64,000 bases of DNA from Halostagnicola larsenii XH-48 (GTDB lineage Archaea; Halobacteriota; Halobacteria; Halobacteriales; Natrialbaceae), in the NCBI RefSeq assembly GCF_000517625.1, contig NZ_CP007055.1, forward strand, positions 124,001-188,000, read 5' to 3'. The translations under genes were made by a program, and so were the position numbers. The notes beneath the pieces are model-generated. The model searched no databases. It worked only from the letters and a program-made list of their open reading frames with translations, and was not told where the DNA came from. Each line of letters begins with the position of its first letter. Within the stretch, counting starts at the first letter, position 1. Of this stretch, positions 18,649 to 27,241 are shown piece after piece.

Positions 18649-18795
18649 GCTCGGCGCTGTCGAGAAAACATCGCACTATCGTCACTTTCCCGTCTACTGC
18701 TGGTCTCCGCACTATTCCCGCCTCTGTACATCCTCTTTTGGAGGCCGTCTCTGATCAATCCCCGAATCGCGTAGCGATCGCCTCACAAAGGAGCC

Positions 18796-18820
18796 TTTAA
18801 GTGATTCGAGTATCATACTC
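18796..18820 (+). promoter_or_regulatory. Promoter with perfect palindrome before the Arg-rich leader ORF
   Basis: TTTAAG (18796-18801) fits a TATA box, and seven bases later comes the perfect palindrome GAGTAT-C-ATACTC (18808-18820). The ATG of the leader ORF follows six bases later. A repressor bound here would cover the transcription start. Confidence 0.55.
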
Positions 18821-18826
18821 AGCACA

Positions 18827-18910
18827 ATGAGCAACCTGATCGGTGCTTCGGTTCGCGATTCCGTGACCGACAGGTTCACCCCTCGGCGGCGGCCGCGGCG
18901 GGCCTTTTGA
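18827..18910 (+). CDS. Candidate arginine-rich leader peptide upstream of argG
   Basis: A 27-residue frame, MSNLIGASVRDSVTDRFTPR then RRPRRAF and a TGA stop. Seven of 27 residues are Arg, five of them in the last eight positions, all encoded by CGG. It has its own promoter-like box 31 bp upstream and begins five or so bases after the predicted transcription start, so it would be translated from a near-leaderless mRNA. The stop codon lies in the loop of a GC-rich hairpin (18898-18916). Position upstream of argG, Arg richness and hairpin overlap together resemble a bacterial-type attenuator. Leader-peptide attenuation is not an established mechanism in haloarchaea, so the call is tentative; a chance ORF in GC-rich DNA is the main alternative. 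Confidence 0.4.
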   Translation: MSNLIGASVRDSVTDRFTPRRRPRRAF

Positions 18911-18916
18911 GCCCGC
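18898..18916 (+). terminator. GC-rich hairpin overlapping the leader ORF stop
   Basis: GCGGGC (18898-18903) pairs perfectly with GCCCGC (18911-18916), with the loop cttttga containing the leader stop codon. The T-run that follows is weak (actatttcctt), so it may be an attenuator, an RNA-stability hairpin or incidental. Confidence 0.35.
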
Positions 18917-18990
18917 ACTATTTCCTTCCCACAACGCCGATGATTTCCACACTTCGAACTCTCTATTTGTAGTTAGCAGGCGCTCTATCG

Positions 18991-19027
18991 TATTTTTACG
19001 AGACTTAAACCAATGAACTTAAGTCTC
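18991..19027 (+). promoter_or_regulatory. argG promoter with 9-bp-arm operator
   Basis: A TATA-like tattttta (18991-18998) is followed directly by the inverted repeat GAGACTTAA (19000-19008) and TTAAGTCTC (19019-19027) with a 10-bp spacer. The repeat spans the predicted transcription start near 19020-19025, about 30 bp before the argG ATG. The geometry fits repression by a dimeric regulator. Confidence 0.6.
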
Positions 19028-19052: not shown

Positions 19053-20288
19053 ATGACACGTGTGGCACTTGCGTTTTCGGGCGGACTGGACACGACCGTC
19101 TGTGTCCCGCTGCTCGAGGAAGAGTACGGATACGACGACGTTATCGGCGTCACCGTCGACGTCGGTCAGCCGGCCTCCGAATTCGACGAGGCCGAAGAGA
19201 CGGCCGAAGCGCTCGGCCTCGAACACTACGTCGTCGACGCCAAGGAGGAGTTTGCACAGCTCTGTCTCGAGAGCGTTCGCGCGAACGCGACCTATCAGGG
19301 CTACCCGCTTGGAACCGCCCTCGCACGCCCGGTGATCGCCGAGGCGATTCTCGAGGTTGCAGAAGAAAACGACTGTACCGGTATCGCACACGGCTGTACG
19401 GGCAAAGGAAACGATCAGCTCCGCTTCGAAGCGATCTGGCGCGACTCCGACCTCGAGGTCATCGCACCGGTTCGCGAACTCGGGCTCACGCGCGAGTGGG
19501 AACAGGAGTACGCCGACGAGAAGAACCTGCCCGTCGAGGGCGGCAGCGGCGGCGACTGGTCGATCGACACCAATCTCTGGAGCCGTTCGGTCGAGGGCGA
19601 CAAGCTCGAGGACCCGAGCTACGTTCCGCCGACTGATATCTACGAGTGGACCGACGAGCCGACCGGCGATATCGAAGAAATCGAGATCTCGTTCGAACAG
19701 GGCTACCCCGTCGGCATCGATGGGGAGGAGTACGACTCGATCGACCTGATCGAGACGCTCAACGAGCTCGCCGGCTCCTACGGCGTCGGTCGCACTGACT
19801 CGATGGAAGACCGCATGCTCGGTCTCAAGGTTCGCGAGAACTACGAGCACCCGGCGGCGACGACGCTGCTCAACGCCCACGAGGCGCTCGAGGGCCTCGT
19901 GCTCACCCAAGAAGAGCGCCAGTTCAAACAGCAGATCGACCAGCAGTGGTCCCAGAAGGGCTACGAGGGGCTGATCGACGCGCCGCTTGTCGACGCGCTC
20001 GAGGGATTCATCGCCGAGACTCAAAAGCGCGTCACCGGAACGGTTACCATCAGATTCGAGGGCGGACAGGCCCGCCCGGTTGCCCGCGACAGCGAGTACG
20101 CGGCGTACTCGGCGGCCCACGCCTCCTTCGACACCGAAACGGTCGGTAAGATCAAACAGGAGGACGCGACGGGCGTCGCGAAGTACCACGGCTTCCAGCG
20201 CCGTCTCGCAAACGCCGCGATCGAGGACATCGACGGCGACGCCGTTTCGGTCGCGACCGACGGCGGCGACGACTCGAGCGAGGAATAA
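19053..20288 (+). CDS. argG: Argininosuccinate synthase
   Basis: ArgG condenses citrulline and aspartate with ATP to argininosuccinate, the seventh step of arginine synthesis. The 411-residue protein starts MTRVALAFSGGLDTTVCV, with the PP-loop SGGLDTT at residues 9-15 that binds ATP (Ser is more usual in the last place). Further signatures are GCTGKGNDQLRFE, the citrulline/aspartate-binding segment NLWSRSVEG, and the TDSMEDRMLGLKVRENYEHP region. The length is typical. It is the first gene of a nine-gene arg operon; argH follows after two bases. Control by the palindromes upstream is likely but unproven. Confidence 0.98.
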   Translation: MTRVALAFSGGLDTTVCVPLLEEEYGYDDVIGVTVDVGQPASEFDEAEETAEALGLEHYVVDAKEEFAQLCLESVRANATYQGYPLGTALARPVIAEAILEVAEENDCTGIAHGCTGKGNDQLRFEAIWRDSDLEVIAPVRELGLTREWEQEYADEKNLPVEGGSGGDWSIDTNLWSRSVEGDKLEDPSYVPPTDIYEWTDEPTGDIEEIEISFEQGYPVGIDGEEYDSIDLIETLNELAGSYGVGRTDSMEDRMLGLKVRENYEHPAATTLLNAHEALEGLVLTQEERQFKQQIDQQWSQKGYEGLIDAPLVDALEGFIAETQKRVTGTVTIRFEGGQARPVARDSEYAAYSAAHASFDTETVGKIKQEDATGVAKYHGFQRRLANAAIEDIDGDAVSVATDGGDDSSEE

Positions 20289-20290
20289 GC

Positions 20291-21775
20291 ATGACAGGAG
20301 AGAACGCTGACGGCGGGAACGCCGATGGAACCAGCGAGGGTGTCGTCCGCCGGGACCGGTTCAGCGGCGGGCCCGCACGGAGCTTTCTCTCCTCGCTCGA
20401 GGCGGACGCGCGCATCTTCGAGGCGGACCTCGAGGTCGACCGCGCACACGTCGTGATGCTCGCCGAGTGCGAAATCGTCGAGTCGGACGTTGCCGGGAAG
20501 ATCCTCACGGCGCTCGACGCGATCGAAGTCGAAGGCCACGAGAATCTGCCCGACGGCGAGGACGTACACGAGGCGATCGAAACTGCCGTCATCGAACAGA
20601 TCGGTCCCGACGGCGGGAAGATGCACACCGCCCGCTCGCGCAACGACGAGGTGGCGACCTGCATCCGCTATCGCCTCCGCGAGGATGTCCTCTCGGCGAT
20701 CGAGACGACGCTCGCGCTCCGCGAGGCGTTACTCGAGGTCGCCGACGAACACGCCGAAACCACCATGCCCGGCTACACGCACCTCCAGCCGGCCCAGCCG
20801 ATCACGGTGGGCCACTGGGCGTTGTCCTACGAGAACGCCGTCCGTCGCGATACGGCGCGATTGTTAGACGCGTACGGTCGAATCAACCAGTCGCCCCTCG
20901 GCGGGGCGGCCTTCGCCGGGACGACGTTCGATATCGACCGCGAGCGGACGGCCGACCTGCTCGGCTTCGACTCCGTCCTCGAGAATTCGATGGACGCCTC
21001 CTCGAGCCGGGATTTCCTGCTCGAGACGACCCAGGCGCTCTCGACGCTCGCGACGACGCTGTCGGGACTCGCCGAGGACGTGATAATCTTCGCGAACCGC
21101 GGGTTCGTCGACCTCTCGGACGACTACTCCTCGACGTCGTCGATCATGCCCCAGAAGAAAAACCCCGACACGCTCGAACTCGTTCGCGCGGTCGCCGGCG
21201 ACGCGGCCGGCGAAGTACAGGGGTTGACGACGACGTTGAAAGGACTCCCGCGCGCGTACAACCGCGATTTACAGCGCGCCACGCCCCACGCCTGGGAGGC
21301 GGTCGACGCCGTTCGCGAAGCGACGGAAGTCGCGGCCGGGGCGGTCTCGACGGCCGACTGGAACGAAGCCGAACTCGCCGATGAAGCGGGTGCCGGCTTC
21401 TCGACCGCGACCGGCGTCGCGGATCTGCTGGCGGAAAACGGGTTGCCGTTCCGGACCGCCCACGAGGTGGTCGCACGCGCGGCCGAAGTGGACACCGACG
21501 ACGAGTTCGAGGCGATCGAGGCCGCGGCCGCCGAGGTTCTCGGCGAACCGCTCGAGAGCTACGTCGATCCGGCCGCGGTCGAAGCGGCGCTCGATCCGGC
21601 CGAGAGCGTCGCCAGTCGCGACTCGCAGGGTGGACCCGCCCCGTCGGCCGTCCGAGACCAGCTCGAGTCCGGTCGGCAGGCGCTCAAGGTCGACCGCACG
21701 GACCGCGACGCGCTCGAGGACCGACTCTCGAGTGCACACGCGTCGCTCCGCCAGGAGGTGGGTGAGTATGTGTGA
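20291..21775 (+). CDS. argH: Argininosuccinate lyase
   Basis: ArgH cleaves argininosuccinate to arginine and fumarate, the last step of the pathway. The 494-residue protein shows the fumarase/aspartase superfamily signature TSSIMPQKKNPDTLEL (flexible catalytic loop with its Ser), the conserved HTARSRNDEV (here KMHTARSRNDEVATC), and TTMPGYTHLQPAQPITVGHW with the catalytic His. The active site forms across a tetramer. The protein is cytoplasmic. The start codon comes two bases after the argG stop, indicating one mRNA. A 220-bp gap with a GC-rich palindrome separates it from lysW, where a second promoter is seen, so the operon may be transcribed in two units. Confidence 0.97.
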   Translation: MTGENADGGNADGTSEGVVRRDRFSGGPARSFLSSLEADARIFEADLEVDRAHVVMLAECEIVESDVAGKILTALDAIEVEGHENLPDGEDVHEAIETAVIEQIGPDGGKMHTARSRNDEVATCIRYRLREDVLSAIETTLALREALLEVADEHAETTMPGYTHLQPAQPITVGHWALSYENAVRRDTARLLDAYGRINQSPLGGAAFAGTTFDIDRERTADLLGFDSVLENSMDASSSRDFLLETTQALSTLATTLSGLAEDVIIFANRGFVDLSDDYSSTSSIMPQKKNPDTLELVRAVAGDAAGEVQGLTTTLKGLPRAYNRDLQRATPHAWEAVDAVREATEVAAGAVSTADWNEAELADEAGAGFSTATGVADLLAENGLPFRTAHEVVARAAEVDTDDEFEAIEAAAAEVLGEPLESYVDPAAVEAALDPAESVASRDSQGGPAPSAVRDQLESGRQALKVDRTDRDALEDRLSSAHASLRQEVGEYV

Positions 21776-21963
21776 CGCGATTTCGACACGCACCGCGGCC
21801 GGTCGGGTCCCAACCGGGCTCACGACCCCGTTACCCCGGCGGCCCCCGCGGGGCCAACATACACCTAAACTCTGATATATCGGCACAAATATTCCTGAAA
21901 AACATACGTAGACTCCGTTAGTGCGGCGTGCAGTATTGTAATTGTGCTGTTAGGTTCGACAGG

Positions 21964-21992
21964 TTTAAGGGTAATCACCTCCCAGTTGGGAG
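21964..21992 (+). promoter_or_regulatory. lysW promoter with perfect palindrome
   Basis: TTTAAG (21964-21969) fits a TATA box and the perfect palindrome CTCCCA-GT-TGGGAG (21979-21992) follows ten bases later, four bases before the lysW ATG at 21997. The geometry repeats that of the leader promoter at 18796-18820 although the palindrome sequence differs. Confidence 0.6.
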
Positions 21993-21996
21993 TACA

Positions 21997-22161
21997 ATGA
22001 CCGAATGCGTCGAGTGTGGGGCGGACGTCGCCCTTCACGACGATCTGGAAGTTGGAGAGATCGTTGACTGTACGACCTGTGGAGCAGAGCTAGAAGTCGT
22101 CGACACCGCGCCGCCAGTCCTCGAACGGGCCCCCGAGCTCGAAGAGGACTGGGGTGAGTAA
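21997..22161 (+). CDS. lysW: Amino-group carrier protein LysW
   Basis: LysW is the small acidic carrier whose C-terminal glutamate is coupled to the amino group of glutamate (or aminoadipate), protecting it while ArgB, ArgC, ArgD act. The 54-residue protein has a zinc ribbon with C4/C7 (CVECG) and C25/C28 (CTTCG) and ends in the diagnostic EDWGE, leaving Glu54 as the attachment site. The start at 21997 fits the promoter and places CVECG right at the N-terminus. The stop is two bases before the argX start. The size and motif match the known LysW family precisely. Confidence 0.97.
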   Translation: MTECVECGADVALHDDLEVGEIVDCTTCGAELEVVDTAPPVLERAPELEEDWGE

Positions 22162-22163
22162 CC

Positions 22164-23042
22164 TTGCAAGTAGGACTCCTCTACTCACGAATCCGCAAGG
22201 ACGAGAAGCTGCTCCTCTCGGAGCTTCGCGACCGCGACCACGAGGTCGAAAAGATCGACGTCCGCAAGCAGACGTTCGACATCTCGGGAGCGCCCGACTC
22301 GTTCGCCGGTCTCGACATCGTGATCGATCGCTGTCTCGCGACGAGCCGAAGCCTGTACGCGACGAAGTTCTTCGAGGCATACGACATCCCGATCATCAAC
22401 TCGAACGAAACGGCCGATATCTGCGCCGACAAGGTCAAAAACAGCCTCGCGCTCGAGGCCGCGGGCGTGCCGACGCCCGAGACGACCGTCGCGTTCACCA
22501 AAGACAGCGCGCTCGAGGCCATCGAGGAGTTCGGCTACCCCTGCGTCCTCAAGCCGGTCGTCGGTTCGTGGGGTCGCCTGATGGCCAAGATCGACTCTCG
22601 AGACGCCGCGGAAGCGATCCTCGAGCACAAGGCGACGCTCGGCCACTACGAGCACAAGGTGTTCTACGTTCAGGAGTTCGTCGAGAAGCCGGGTCGCGAT
22701 ATTCGCGTGCTGGCTATCGACGGCGAGCCGGTCGCCGCGATGGCTCGCTCTTCGGACCACTGGCTCACGAACGCCGCCAAAGGGGCCGAGACCGACGTTT
22801 TCGAACTCGACGAGGAAGCGAAAACCCTCGTTCAGGACGCGAGTGACGCCGTCGGCGGTGGGCTGCTCGGCGTCGACCTCATGGAGACCGGTGACAGTTA
22901 CACCGTCCACGAGGTCAACCACACCGTCGAGTTCAAGGCGCTCGATTCGGCCGTCGAAACCGACGTCGCCGGAACCGTCGTCGACTGGATCGAACGGAAA
23001 GCCGTCGAGGCGTCCGACGCCGAACTCGAGGTGAGCGCCTGA
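22164..23042 (+). CDS. argX: Glutamate--LysW ligase ArgX (RimK-like ATP-grasp)
   Basis: ArgX joins glutamate to the C-terminal Glu of LysW using ATP, the first committed step of carrier-based arginine synthesis. The 292-residue ATP-grasp protein begins with a TTG codon two bases after the lysW stop (QVGLLYSRIRKDEKLLLSEL). ATP-grasp features include KPVVGSWGRLMAKI (phosphate-binding loop), VQEFVEKPGRDIRVLAIDGE with the substrate-binding Arg, and a metal-binding GVDLMETGDSYTVHEVNHT near the end. It belongs to the RimK/LysX family; choice of Glu rather than aminoadipate is inferred from the neighbouring argC-argB-argF, not from residues. A dual arginine/lysine role is possible. Confidence 0.93.
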   Translation: MQVGLLYSRIRKDEKLLLSELRDRDHEVEKIDVRKQTFDISGAPDSFAGLDIVIDRCLATSRSLYATKFFEAYDIPIINSNETADICADKVKNSLALEAAGVPTPETTVAFTKDSALEAIEEFGYPCVLKPVVGSWGRLMAKIDSRDAAEAILEHKATLGHYEHKVFYVQEFVEKPGRDIRVLAIDGEPVAAMARSSDHWLTNAAKGAETDVFELDEEAKTLVQDASDAVGGGLLGVDLMETGDSYTVHEVNHTVEFKALDSAVETDVAGTVVDWIERKAVEASDAELEVSA

Positions 23043-24118
23043 TGGGGGTCAACTCGCTGGACGATGTCGGCACGGACGCCGAAACGGTTACCGCCAGCAT
23101 CATCGGCGGGAGCGGCTTCACGGGCGGGGAACTCCTGCGTCTGCTCGCGAGCCACCCCTCCATCGAACTCGTCGAGGTGACCAGCCGGTCGAAAGCCGGC
23201 AAGAGCGTCGGCTCGGTCCACCCGCCGCTTCGCGGGACGGACCTGCGCTTTACCGAACCTGCCGATCTCGAGAGCGTCGACGTGCTTTTCGCGGCGACGC
23301 CACACGGCGTGTCGATGGGGCAGATCGACGAATTTTTCGACGTTGCAGACACCGTCGTCGACCTCTCGGCGGACTTTCGACTCGAGCGCGAGGCCCAGTA
23401 CGACGAGTGGTACGACGGCCACGACGCGCCGGAGTACCTCGAGAAATCCGAATACGCGCTTCCCGAGATCAACCGCGAGAACCTCGAGGGTGCGGACCTG
23501 ATCGCTGGTGGCGGCTGTAACGCCACGGCGACGATCCTCGGGCTGTACCCGCTGTTCGAACACGATATCCTCGACGGCGACGAACAGATCGTCGTCGACG
23601 TCAAGGTCGGCTCCTCGGAAGGCGGGGCCGGCGGCGGCGAGGCTTCGAGCCACCCCGAGCGCTCGGGCGTCGTCCGCCCGTACGCGCCGACGGGCCACCG
23701 ACACGAGGCCGAAATCGAGCAGTTCCTCGGCACCTCGGTCTCCTTTACCTGCCACGCCGTGGATATGATCCGCGGCGCGAGCGCGACCAGTCACGTCTTC
23801 CCCTCGGGACCGGTCTCGAAGGGCGACCTCTGGCAGGCCTACCGCGGCGAGTACGAGGACGAGCCGTTCGTCCGGATGGCCGCCGGCGGCTCGGGCGTCT
23901 ATCGCTACCCCGAACCGAAGGCCATTGCAGGAACGAACATGGCCGAAGTCGGCTTCGAACTCGATCCGTCGAACAAGCGGGTCGTGGTCTTTTCGGCCAT
24001 CGACAACATGATGAAGGGGTCGGCCGGACAGGCCGTCCACGCGGCGAACATCGCGCTCGGTCTCGAGGAGACCGCCGGACTCGAGTTTACGGGACTACAC
24101 CCCGTGGGGGCACCGTAG
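23042..24118 (+). CDS. argC: LysW-linked gamma-glutamyl-phosphate/aminoadipyl-phosphate reductase
   Basis: This 358-residue enzyme reduces the phosphorylated side chain of LysW-bound glutamate to the semialdehyde with NADPH. It opens with a Rossmann GGSGFTGGELLRLLA (residues 20-34), then the active-site Cys in LIAGGGCNATATILGLYPL. The segments SHPERSGVVRPYAPTGHRHE and VGSSEGGAGGGE are family features around the catalytic His. The length is slightly longer than bacterial ArgC because of a short N-terminal extension (MGVNSLDDVGTDAE). Stop and start of argX and argC share one base (TGATG), implying tight coupling. Confidence 0.96.
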   Translation: MGVNSLDDVGTDAETVTASIIGGSGFTGGELLRLLASHPSIELVEVTSRSKAGKSVGSVHPPLRGTDLRFTEPADLESVDVLFAATPHGVSMGQIDEFFDVADTVVDLSADFRLEREAQYDEWYDGHDAPEYLEKSEYALPEINRENLEGADLIAGGGCNATATILGLYPLFEHDILDGDEQIVVDVKVGSSEGGAGGGEASSHPERSGVVRPYAPTGHRHEAEIEQFLGTSVSFTCHAVDMIRGASATSHVFPSGPVSKGDLWQAYRGEYEDEPFVRMAAGGSGVYRYPEPKAIAGTNMAEVGFELDPSNKRVVVFSAIDNMMKGSAGQAVHAANIALGLEETAGLEFTGLHPVGAP

Positions 24119-24985
24119 ATGGTAACCGTCGTCAAAATCGGCGGCGCACGCGCCGTCGACCCCGAGGGTGCGCTCGCTGACGTCGCCTCGCTCGTCGAGG
24201 ACGGCGAGGATGTCGTCCTCACCCACGGCGGTTCGACCGCCGTCGACGAGACGCTCGAGGAACTCGGCGAGGAGCCGACCTACGTCGAAACGCCCGGCGG
24301 CGTCGTCGGCCGATTCACCGACGAACGGACGATGGACGTCTTCAAGATGGTGATGCCGGGGAAGCTCAACACGGACCTCGTCGAGGCCCTCCAGAACGAG
24401 GGCGTCGACGCAGTTGGGCTCACCGGCACCGACGGAAAGCTGCTCTCGGGCAAGCGAAAATCCGCAGTTAGGGTCAAAGAGGACGGCAAGAAGAAGATCA
24501 AACGCGGCGACCACTCGGGAACGATCGAGTCGGTCAACGCGGACCTGCTCGAGACGCTGCTCTCGAGTTCGTACACGCCCGTCGTCTCCGTTCCGGTACT
24601 CGGGAGGGAGAAAGACGGCGGCTACACCGCCGTCAACGCCGACGCGGACCGCGCGGCTGCCGCGGTCGCGGGCGCGCTCGAGGCGGATCTCGTCCTCCTG
24701 ACAGACGTGTCGGGGATCTACGAGGATCCCGACGACGAGTCGACCAAGATCGACGGGGCCTCGACGCCCGCGGAGTTCGAGACCGTCAAAGACGCCGCGG
24801 AAGGATTCATGACGAAGAAGGTGATGGCGGCCGAGGAGTCCCTCGAGGGCGGAGCCGCCTCGGTCGTCGTCGCGGACGCGAACGCGGACGACCCGATCAC
24901 GAGCGCACTCCATGGCGACGGGACGACCCTGCTGCCCGATGTGCTCGAGGATGACGAGAACGCGAAAACGGAGGCCACAGAATGA
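24119..24985 (+). CDS. argB: LysW-linked glutamate/aminoadipate kinase
   Basis: ArgB phosphorylates the side-chain carboxylate of the LysW-bound glutamate. The 288-residue amino-acid kinase has the Lys-containing start VVKIGGARAVDPEG, the GGS loop HGGSTAVDETL, and the substrate segment GRFTDERTMDVFKMVMPGKLNTDLV, which in the LysW branch replaces the acetylglutamate pocket. DVSGIYEDPDD and DAAEGFMTKKVMAAEES are typical ATP- and metal-binding segments. Its start is directly after the argC stop, and its own stop overlaps argD by 4 nt (ATGA). Confidence 0.96.
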   Translation: MVTVVKIGGARAVDPEGALADVASLVEDGEDVVLTHGGSTAVDETLEELGEEPTYVETPGGVVGRFTDERTMDVFKMVMPGKLNTDLVEALQNEGVDAVGLTGTDGKLLSGKRKSAVRVKEDGKKKIKRGDHSGTIESVNADLLETLLSSSYTPVVSVPVLGREKDGGYTAVNADADRAAAAVAGALEADLVLLTDVSGIYEDPDDESTKIDGASTPAEFETVKDAAEGFMTKKVMAAEESLEGGAASVVVADANADDPITSALHGDGTTLLPDVLEDDENAKTEATE

Positions 24986-26124
24986 GCGACCACGATTTCG
25001 TTTCCGGCGGCAAGCCGATCGGCATCGAGCGCGGCGAGGGACCGTACCTCTACACGGCCGACGAGACGGCGTACATCGACGCGGGTGCAAGCTTCGCCTG
25101 CACGCCGCTCGGGCACAGTCACCCGGCGGTTGTCGACGCAGTCTGCGAACAAGTCGAAAACCTGATATTCATCGACTCCTCCTATCCCGTTCAGTCGCGC
25201 GAGGACGCCTACGCTTCGTTCGTCGCGTCGACGCCCGACGGACTGGATCAGGCCTGGTTCTGTAACTCCGGGACCGAGGCAAATGAAGCTGCGCTAAAAT
25301 TCGCCCGCTCGGCGACCGGCGAGTCGAAGATCGTCGCCGCGACCCGCTCGTTCCACGGCCGGACGATGGGAGCGCTCGCGGCCACCTGGAAGGACAAGTA
25401 CAAGAAACCCTACGAACCGCTTGCAGGTGACGTGGAGTTCGTTCCGTACGGCGACAGCGAGGAACTCGCGGCCGCCGTCGACGACGAGACTGCGGCGGTC
25501 ATCTTGGAGCCGATCCAGGGCGAGGGCGGGATCAACGTTCCGCCGGCGGGCTACCTCGAGACGGCACGCGAGGTCACCGACGACGCCGGCGCGGCGCTCG
25601 TCTTCGACGAGGTTCAGACCGGCATGGGTCGGACGGGTTCGATGTGGGCCTGTCAGAACGCGGGCGTCACACCAGACATCCTGACGACGGCCAAGGGGCT
25701 TGGCAACGGCCTGCCCGTCGGCGCGGTCGCGGTCCGCGACTGGATCGCTGACGGCGCGGCTTCCCACAACGCAACCTTCAGCGGCGGTCCCGTCGTCACC
25801 GCGGCGGTCCACGCGACCATCTCGACGCTGGTCGAGGAGGAGTGGCCCGCTCACGCCGCCGAGATGGGCGAGTATCTCACGGCGGAACTCGAGGCCGCCC
25901 TCGGCGACGAGGTGCGGGAGGTCCGCGGCGAGGGGCTGCTCATCGGTATCGAGTTGAAACGCGGCGCAAACCGGGCCGCACGGGACCTAGCAATGAACCA
26001 CCAAATCCTGGCGCTCCCGGCGGGTCGGACCGTTCTGCGCCTGCTGCCGCCGCTGGTGATCGACGAGGCCGACGCGGATCAGCTCGTGGGCGCGCTGGCC
26101 GAAGTCGTCGTCTCCGAGTCCTAA
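24982..26124 (+). CDS. argD: LysW-linked ornithine/lysine aminotransferase
   Basis: ArgD is a PLP enzyme that transfers an amino group from glutamate to the LysW-bound semialdehyde, giving LysW-bound ornithine. The 380-residue class III aminotransferase shows NSGTEANEAALKFAR (97-110), FHGRTMGALAAT, the phosphate pocket EPIQGEGGINVP, the pyridine-binding Asp in VFDEVQTGMGRTG, and the Schiff-base lysine K238 in TTAKGLGNGLPVG. It begins inside the end of argB (4-nt overlap) and is separated from argE by seven bases. Confidence 0.96.
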   Translation: MSDHDFVSGGKPIGIERGEGPYLYTADETAYIDAGASFACTPLGHSHPAVVDAVCEQVENLIFIDSSYPVQSREDAYASFVASTPDGLDQAWFCNSGTEANEAALKFARSATGESKIVAATRSFHGRTMGALAATWKDKYKKPYEPLAGDVEFVPYGDSEELAAAVDDETAAVILEPIQGEGGINVPPAGYLETAREVTDDAGAALVFDEVQTGMGRTGSMWACQNAGVTPDILTTAKGLGNGLPVGAVAVRDWIADGAASHNATFSGGPVVTAAVHATISTLVEEEWPAHAAEMGEYLTAELEAALGDEVREVRGEGLLIGIELKRGANRAARDLAMNHQILALPAGRTVLRLLPPLVIDEADADQLVGALAEVVVSES

Positions 26125-26131
26125 CGTAACT

Positions 26132-27241
26132 ATGACTGCGAGCAAACCCGAACCGACCGATGTCTCGCCCGAGAACGCACGGAACCTGTTGATCGATCTC
26201 GTCTCGATTTCCTCCCCCAGCGGCGAGGAACGCAAGGCGGCCGAACGCCTCGTCGAGTTCTTCACGGCGAACGGCCGCGAGGCCTGGATCGACGAGGTCG
26301 GCAACGTTCGCGCGCCGGCCGACGACGCGGTTTTGCTGACCTCCCACGTCGACACCGTTCCCGGCGAGATTCCGGTCGAGGTTCGCCCAGCCGACGCGGA
26401 CGACCTCGAGTCCGAGGTCGCCAGCGAGGAGGGTGAAGACGTCCTCTGGGGGCGGGGCAGCGTCGACGCCACCGGTCCGCTCGCAGCGATGGCCGTCGCC
26501 GCCGTACGAACGGGCGTCTCCTTCGTCGGCGTCGTCGGCGAGGAGACCAACTCCCGCGGCGCGCGTCACCTGGCCGTCGACCGCGAGGAACCCGACGCCG
26601 TCGTCAACGGCGAACCCAGCGGCGCGACCGGGATCACCCTCGGCTATCGCGGTTTTCTCGCGGGGACCTACGTTGCGACCAGCGAGTCCGGCCACACCTC
26701 CCGGCCGGAACCGAACGCGATTCAACACGCGATCGACTGGTGGACGGCCGTCGAGGACGCCTTCGCGGACGACGAGTACCATCCCGTTTTCGAACGCGTG
26801 ACGGCCAAACCCGTCGACGTCGACGGCGGTTCGAGCGAGGACGGCCTGTCGGTCGAGACGACCCTGGACGTGCAATTGCGCATCCCGCCGACGCTCACCG
26901 CCGAAGCGGTTCGCGAGACCGCCGAAGCCGAACTCGAGATCGGCACCGTCTCCTGGGCGGAGCCGATCCCGCCGGTCATGGAGAGCCCGCGGACCGAAGT
27001 CGCGCGGGCGTTTCGCGCGGCGATCCGCGAGCAGGACGCCGATCCACGGTTGCTCCGAAAGACCGGAACCAGCGATATGAACATCTACGCCGGCAGTTGG
27101 GACTGTCCGATGGCGACCTACGGCCCCGGAAACTCGGATCTCGATCACGCGCCGAACGAACGCCTTTCGCTGTCCGAGTTCGATCGTTCCATTTCCGTCC
27201 TCGAGTCCGTCGCAGCAGACCTTCGCGGTGATACCCAATGA
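26132..27241 (+). CDS. argE: LysW-ornithine/LysW-lysine hydrolase
   Basis: This 369-residue M20-family metallopeptidase releases ornithine (or lysine) from LysW. Metal-ligand and catalytic segments are visible in order: SPSGEERKAAERLVEFF, LTSHVDTVPGEIPV with the His-x-Asp, WGRGSVDATGPLAAMAVAA, GVVGEETNSRGARH with the Glu pair, and a C-terminal YGPGNSDLDHAPNERL with the last His. A dimerisation insert occupies roughly residues 175-275. Its stop overlaps the argF start by 4 nt. Bacterial ArgE and LysK share this fold; the LysW gene context makes LysK-type activity the right one. Confidence 0.94.
   Translation: MTASKPEPTDVSPENARNLLIDLVSISSPSGEERKAAERLVEFFTANGREAWIDEVGNVRAPADDAVLLTSHVDTVPGEIPVEVRPADADDLESEVASEEGEDVLWGRGSVDATGPLAAMAVAAVRTGVSFVGVVGEETNSRGARHLAVDREEPDAVVNGEPSGATGITLGYRGFLAGTYVATSESGHTSRPEPNAIQHAIDWWTAVEDAFADDEYHPVFERVTAKPVDVDGGSSEDGLSVETTLDVQLRIPPTLTAEAVRETAEAELEIGTVSWAEPIPPVMESPRTEVARAFRAAIREQDADPRLLRKTGTSDMNIYAGSWDCPMATYGPGNSDLDHAPNERLSLSEFDRSISVLESVAADLRGDTQ

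Follow-up and report, generated by a model that had tools for sequence, protein, structure and literature searches.

A conserved arginine-rich leader ORF upstream of argG in haloarchaea as a candidate attenuation-like sensor

Upstream of the arginine cluster of the haloarchaeon Halostagnicola larsenii XH-48 lies a short sequence (18795-18934, plus strand) that, with a probability of roughly 0.7, we consider to control the argG operon through a leader peptide and a complete attenuation scheme. Positions are those of the window, i.e. the 64,000-nt stretch of chromosome (NZ_CP007055.1, 124,001 to 188,000) that was analysed. The element looks like an attenuation-like gauge of a type so far known from bacteria. 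Its sensing half, in which a ribosome would read Arg codons in the leader, is very probably real, and an action through premature transcription termination is likely to a lesser degree. Archaeal transcription control is generally taken as acting at initiation; if the proposed reading is true, translation would control transcription elongation in Archaea, a pan-haloarchaeal codon-matched leader would provide direct evidence from genomes that amino acids are sensed in archaea via a coupled ribosome, and the leader element would allow both coupling and FttA-dependent termination to be readily assayed in vivo in tractable species.

Leader, promoters and conservation upstream of argG

The leader ORF (18827-18910, plus strand) starts with ATG, runs for 27 codons to a TGA stop and reads MSNLIGASVRDSVTDRFTPRRRPRRAF. 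Its final eight sense codons are CGG CGG CGG CCG CGG CGG GCC TTT, five of them for Arg and all of these CGG, and the putative sensor codons, CGG CGG CGG CCG CGG CGG (18884-18901, plus strand), are placed between the two stems described below. The TATA box of the leader promoter P1, CTTTAAG (18795-18801, plus strand), includes TTTAAG (18796-18801) and lies 31 nt 5' of the leader ATG, a spacing that suggests a probably leaderless transcript. The leader stop is separated by 142 nt from the argG start at 19053. A first-pass annotation of the window had listed this frame, the TTTAAG box, a palindrome upstream of the ATG, the five CGG codons, a 6-bp GC hairpin with the stop in its loop and the distance to argG, and all of these were borne out when coordinates and codons were read again, with a Pfam match for argG. 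Among relatives the frame, the Arg run and the hairpin were kept, whereas the palindrome and the all-CGG make-up were not, as relatives mix CGA and CGG. The hyphenated palindrome, GAGTATCATACTC, sits at 18808-18820 between the P1 TATA box and the ATG; it is unconserved even within the same genus, was for this reason dropped as a candidate operator, and is probably irrelevant.

The gene argG (19053-20288, plus strand; argininosuccinate synthase, Pfam PF00764/PF20979, Arginosuc_synth) is the first of an arginine cluster that continues with argH and the ArgW-pathway genes argX, argC, argB, argD and argE (20291-27241, plus strand; Pfam matches), with genes packed nearly end to end. A second TATA-like box, P2 (CTTAAG, 19018-19023, plus strand), would be argG's own promoter, and such a box is found 30-60 nt 5' of argG in 71 of 90 genomes, the window's included, so that the leader would there be able to control only part of transcription. 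No P2 is visible in the other 19 genomes, where the leader stop is about 75-210 nt from argG and one mRNA would therefore probably carry both leader and argG; that the leader promoter is the sole visible one in these genomes argues for control in cis.

For the comparison, argG was located in 100 genomes and the upstream DNA was read in 90 haloarchaeal genomes representing 13 families, of which 60 genomes come from the window's own family and hence are not independent. A mini-ORF with an Arg-rich tail preceded argG in 90/90 of these genomes, having the same architecture in quite different sequence. The leaders are mostly 20-35 codons long with an Arg-rich C-terminal part, the run varies in size from 3 to 12 Arg, and no sequence conservation between families was found in the 90 leader peptides outside this run. 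The last 14 leader codons contain a mean of 5.0 Arg, the ORF's own frame being the richest (2.5 and 1.7 in the other frames), and in 84/90 relatives the TATA box starts 31-34 nt before the ATG, as expected of a leaderless haloarchaeal transcript. In a second collection, overlapping with the first in some genomes, an equivalent leader was present in 79/79 named records with upstream DNA, including Natrinema, Natronococcus, Halorussus, Halobaculum, Haladaptatus, Haloplanus, Natronomonas and Haloprofundus. In three named records (L338, L344 and L348) the stop is located beyond the hairpin, and the element is also carried by Natrinema gari (L337), a species with edited arg genes (PMC10433800). By ArgG, the nearest of the named records is Halostagnicola sp. 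A56, at 98%. A search of a plasmid collection gave no match. Three basal families of the order, represented by 5 genomes, lack a comparable element upstream, as do 15 genomes outside the order; judged from this distribution, the element is a haloarchaeal feature, occurring in every family tested but the three basal ones (family f8 stands outside the count). This comparison had been proposed along with the first-pass annotation, loss of the frame or of the Arg codons among relatives being what would speak against a leader. All 13 element-bearing families keep the frame, the Arg run, the hairpin and the promoter spacing, so the leader reading stands.

Codon choice and RNA structure

The Arg codons in the last 14 leader positions (CGA 260, CGG 137, CGT 28, CGC 21, AGG 5) differ from the genomic shares (24.6, 27.2, 7.5, 34.8 and 2.5%, respectively), among which CGC is the commonest. 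Of the 309 Arg codons at positions -4 to -9 relative to the stop, 307 are CGA or CGG, as compared with 52% genome-wide. Since the UCG and GCG anticodons belong to distinct tRNA-Arg genes on the own chromosome, alongside UCU and CCU, a run of this codon choice would be read only by the UCG and, if present, the CCG class. The bias is compatible with a sensor for particular isoacceptors, a tuning proposed for bacterial attenuators, and may also have a structural reason.

Stem 1, upstream of the run, is predicted to form between CCTGATCGGT (18835-18844) and ACCGACAGG (18866-18874), both on the plus strand, with 9 bp and one bulged A, and stem 2 (18898-18916, plus strand) consists of 6 bp between GCGGGC (18898-18903) and GCCCGC (18911-18916) around the loop CTTTTGA (18904-18910), which holds the TGA. 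We compared the duplex energy of two regions of the same leader with that of the same region paired to the leaders of other families. Stem 1, formed by the ORF halves before the Arg run, gave -22.4 kcal/mol for own versus -17.0 for swapped pairs, and stem 2, formed by the two sides of the stop, gave -11.6 versus -9.6 kcal/mol, each in 11/13 families. These were the only two of 28 region pairs with consistent covariation; no competing or antiterminator pairing among stem 1, the Arg run, stem 2 and the downstream RNA was found to covary, nor did the same test show the leader to covary consistently with the sequence 5' of argG. At the stop, 89/90 genomes have a perfect stem of 4 bp or more, with arms that compensate between families (GGGCC/GGCCC, GGGGC/GCCCC, GGCCC/GGGCC, GGGGTC/GACCCC and GACCCC/GGGGTC). 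The stop codons (TAG 45, TGA 44 and TAA 1 in 90 genomes) lie as a rule in or beside the loop of stem 2. In four genomes (L008, L011, L030 and L035) the stop within the hairpin has become a sense codon and the frame continues, and the retention of stem 2 in these genomes implies that the hairpin is conserved for its own sake. The stop is directly followed by a C-rich, G-poor stretch (18911-18934, plus strand), where the 24 nt after the stop have a family-averaged C content of 0.44-0.47 and G of 0.11 in these G+C-rich genomes; this stretch stands in place of a U-run after stem 2, which was not found. Single-sequence folding gave a mean z of -1.56 over the 90 leaders, which is modest when taken alone. 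The Rfam search, which extends to riboswitches, T-boxes and known leaders, returned no family above the gathering score, and a SNORD26 match at 18932-18973 fell below the threshold and was taken as chance.

Leaders with Phe and Trp runs and the specificity of the match

Leaders of this kind also precede aminoacyl-tRNA synthetase genes. At 25 of 30 pheS loci (L212-L241) there is a Phe-run leader with a TATA-like box, ending in GFGFFFAA or similar, and before a trpS paralog a Trp leader (WRW; TGG-CGC-TGG) was found at 18 loci, where a conserved stem encloses the Trp codons in its loop and covaries, own pairs beating swapped ones in 17 of 18 loci. In 12/18 loci a conserved downstream element of the trpS leader may, as a weak 2:3 alternative, pair with the 3' arm. 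The Phe codons of the pheS leaders yield a T run of at least 5 in 19/25, and TTTTTC, of the T5C type, in more than half of the 25. As run and gene agree in amino acid in all three cases (Arg/argG, Phe/pheS, Trp/trpS), amino-acid sensing is by far the simplest reading. In the window's genome, neither the trpC operon nor hisG was found to have such a leader. In Haloferax volcanii, pheS and trpS HVO_A0127 have long 5' UTRs with uORFs of 26 and 23 aa, respectively (Babski et al. 2016, PMC4983044), which are apparently the same Phe and Trp leaders; since they lie in mapped transcripts, they provide independent evidence that such leaders are transcribed. As far as the available part of that paper extends, the two uORFs are not interpreted as sensors, and argG is absent from its table.

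In the own genome the pheS leader is located at C1:2669253 on the minus strand, the Phe leader being conserved in the order, and the pheS leaders show a CGGTGGAC...GAAACCG motif after the stop that brackets a variable stem. The Trp leader before the second trpS gene of the own genome, at about C1 2680440 on the minus strand (set L246-L265), is followed by a conserved GCTCACTCGCTTTCTC-like element.

The match between run and gene was further assessed with a strict search for ATG mini-ORFs that lie at leaderless spacing and carry one amino acid four or more times among their last 14 residues, a definition that misses some true leaders. Upstream of argG such ORFs were found with Arg in 74% of the genomes and with Phe in 0%, and upstream of pheS with Phe in 47% and with Arg in 0%, whereas the reverse-strand controls gave 0-1% (argG 1%). 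Enrichment was limited to Arg and its neighbour in the run, Pro, upstream of argG and to Phe upstream of pheS. A scan confined to the own chromosome covered 2.39 Mb, all but 0.4 Mb of it, and 90 ATG mini-ORFs satisfied the rules on promoter (TATA-like, leaderless spacing), length and position; by tail composition the argG leader ranked first among them (P 4e-5 before correction) and the pheS leader second. Within the single genome of the window this signal is only suggestive, the proof coming from conservation. A scan for amino-acid runs omitting the promoter filter was swamped by chance Arg-rich ORFs, and an apparent Trp-rich mini-ORF turned out to be a nuoA-like gene in the wrong reading frame.

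Proposed mechanism, alternatives and known systems

According to the proposed scheme, transcription from P1 would start at or next to the ATG, as the TATA spacing suggests for a leaderless transcript, and a pioneer ribosome trailing the RNA polymerase would read the CGA/CGG Arg run via the UCG/CCG class of tRNA-Arg. With ample charged tRNA-Arg, the ribosome would reach the stop in stem 2 and depart, stem 2 would fold, the C-rich, G-poor RNA would be exposed, and most transcription would end before argG, either at the hairpin or via the archaeal Rho-like factor FttA/aCPSF1. With scarce charged tRNA-Arg, the ribosome would stall on the run, covering stem 2 and part of the C-rich stretch, and argG would be transcribed. 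Stem 1 might pause the polymerase until the ribosome catches up, or bar later ribosomes from the leaderless 5' end. We infer transcription start, translation, stalling, termination and the direction of the latter from sequence comparison; the roles of FttA and stem 1 are guesses, and so is the terminating step, given that stem 2 is not followed by a U-run and that no antiterminator pairing was found. The first-pass annotation had described a bacterial-type attenuator sensing arginine, of which the leader sensor is upheld by its conservation and by the Phe and Trp counterparts, whereas the textbook U-run and antiterminator were not found and the attenuation outcome is one we infer. The proposed parts exist, as in H. 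volcanii 59% of transcripts are terminated by a hairpin element and 95% by a T5C element (PMC7237163), and FttA has been proposed to compete with the ribosome for the polymerase (PMC11616081). We give even odds to a broader view, that haloarchaea possess an attenuation system of their own in which leaderless Arg, Phe and Trp mini-ORFs control argG, pheS and a trpS, with the ribosome occluding a hairpin and a zone of factor-dependent termination and, in the case of argG, with no antiterminator switch of the bacterial kind.

Among the other readings, the one to be taken most seriously keeps the same sensor and places its output at translation or mRNA stability, such that the ribosome would alter argG initiation or shield the mRNA from cleavage and no transcript would end prematurely. 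It would accommodate a stem 2 lacking both U-run and antiterminator pairing, as well as the 19 genomes in which leader and argG would share an mRNA at a distance of about 75-210 nt, but where P2 exists argG's own short-leader mRNA would escape such control, and the region before argG shows no consistent covarying pairing with the leader; we thus regard this output as unlikely. The lack of any comparable element in the 20 outgroup and basal regions, the reverse-strand control of 1% and the recurrence of the ORF in 90/90 and 79/79, together with a fixed promoter spacing and a hairpin, refute an origin by chance of an Arg-rich ORF in G+C-rich DNA, for which it can be said that within one genome the ORF is merely the best of 90 similar mini-ORFs.

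The conserved ORF with its own promoter might also encode a small Arg-rich peptide with a role in trans, e.g. in binding nucleic acids, and be adjacent to argG by happenstance. Yet the peptides are not conserved between families outside a run that itself varies from 3 to 12 Arg, they belong to no Pfam or NCBIfam family, the synonymous codon choice is under constraint, and the Phe and Trp leaders of pheS and trpS would have to be explained separately, all of which makes such a peptide very improbable. Similarly improbable is a separately transcribed small RNA or structured RNA element with an incidental ORF: two conserved helices, a promoter and a hairpin end of its own would suit it, but the frame, the Arg residues and the promoter-to-ATG spacing persist through changes in sequence and length, the ORF's own frame has more Arg than the other two, and the amino acid in the run corresponds to the gene.

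The haloarchaeal leader resembles the E. coli trp, his, leu and pheST/pheM attenuators in its short leader ORF, where hairpins flank repeated codons for the amino acid that the operon makes or charges, and in its place before biosynthetic or aminoacyl-tRNA synthetase genes, and the haloarchaeal pheS leader parallels bacterial pheM. It differs from them in being archaeal and in having a TATA promoter at leaderless spacing, hence no ribosome-binding site, and a stop inside the second hairpin; the argG leader shows neither covarying mutually exclusive pairing nor a U-tract. A stalled ribosome at the leader end that shields a C-rich, G-poor stretch from a termination factor would resemble the occlusion of the Rho site in E. 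coli tnaC; however, tnaC senses free tryptophan through the nascent peptide and uses Rho, while the haloarchaeal leader would sense through codons and would involve FttA, with a putative preference for C-rich, G-poor RNA. The fungal arginine attenuator peptide (arg-2/CPA1 uORF) is likewise encoded before an arginine gene and responds to arginine, but acts by nascent-chain arrest and has a conserved sequence, whereas in the haloarchaeal leader the Arg run alone is conserved. Actinobacterial leader-peptide attenuators (PMC1262725) are, according to the accessible part of that report, similar in their comparative discovery before amino-acid genes in G+C-rich genomes and different in being bacterial. 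The first-pass annotation had called the mechanism not established in haloarchaea, and indeed Rfam, Pfam and NCBIfam hold no entry, and no report of leader-peptide attenuation in archaea was found in the openly accessible full-text literature, although priority is not certain.

A further set of mini-ORFs was observed at a family of paralogs of about 112 aa (MTATTDSLVVDIVRTLEKEG...), which in the own genome are located at C1:112502-, 885188+, 1267870-, 1547263- and 2578198+; upstream of several of these lie a TATA box and a similar mini-ORF that ends in LKCPGC or LKCPGW.
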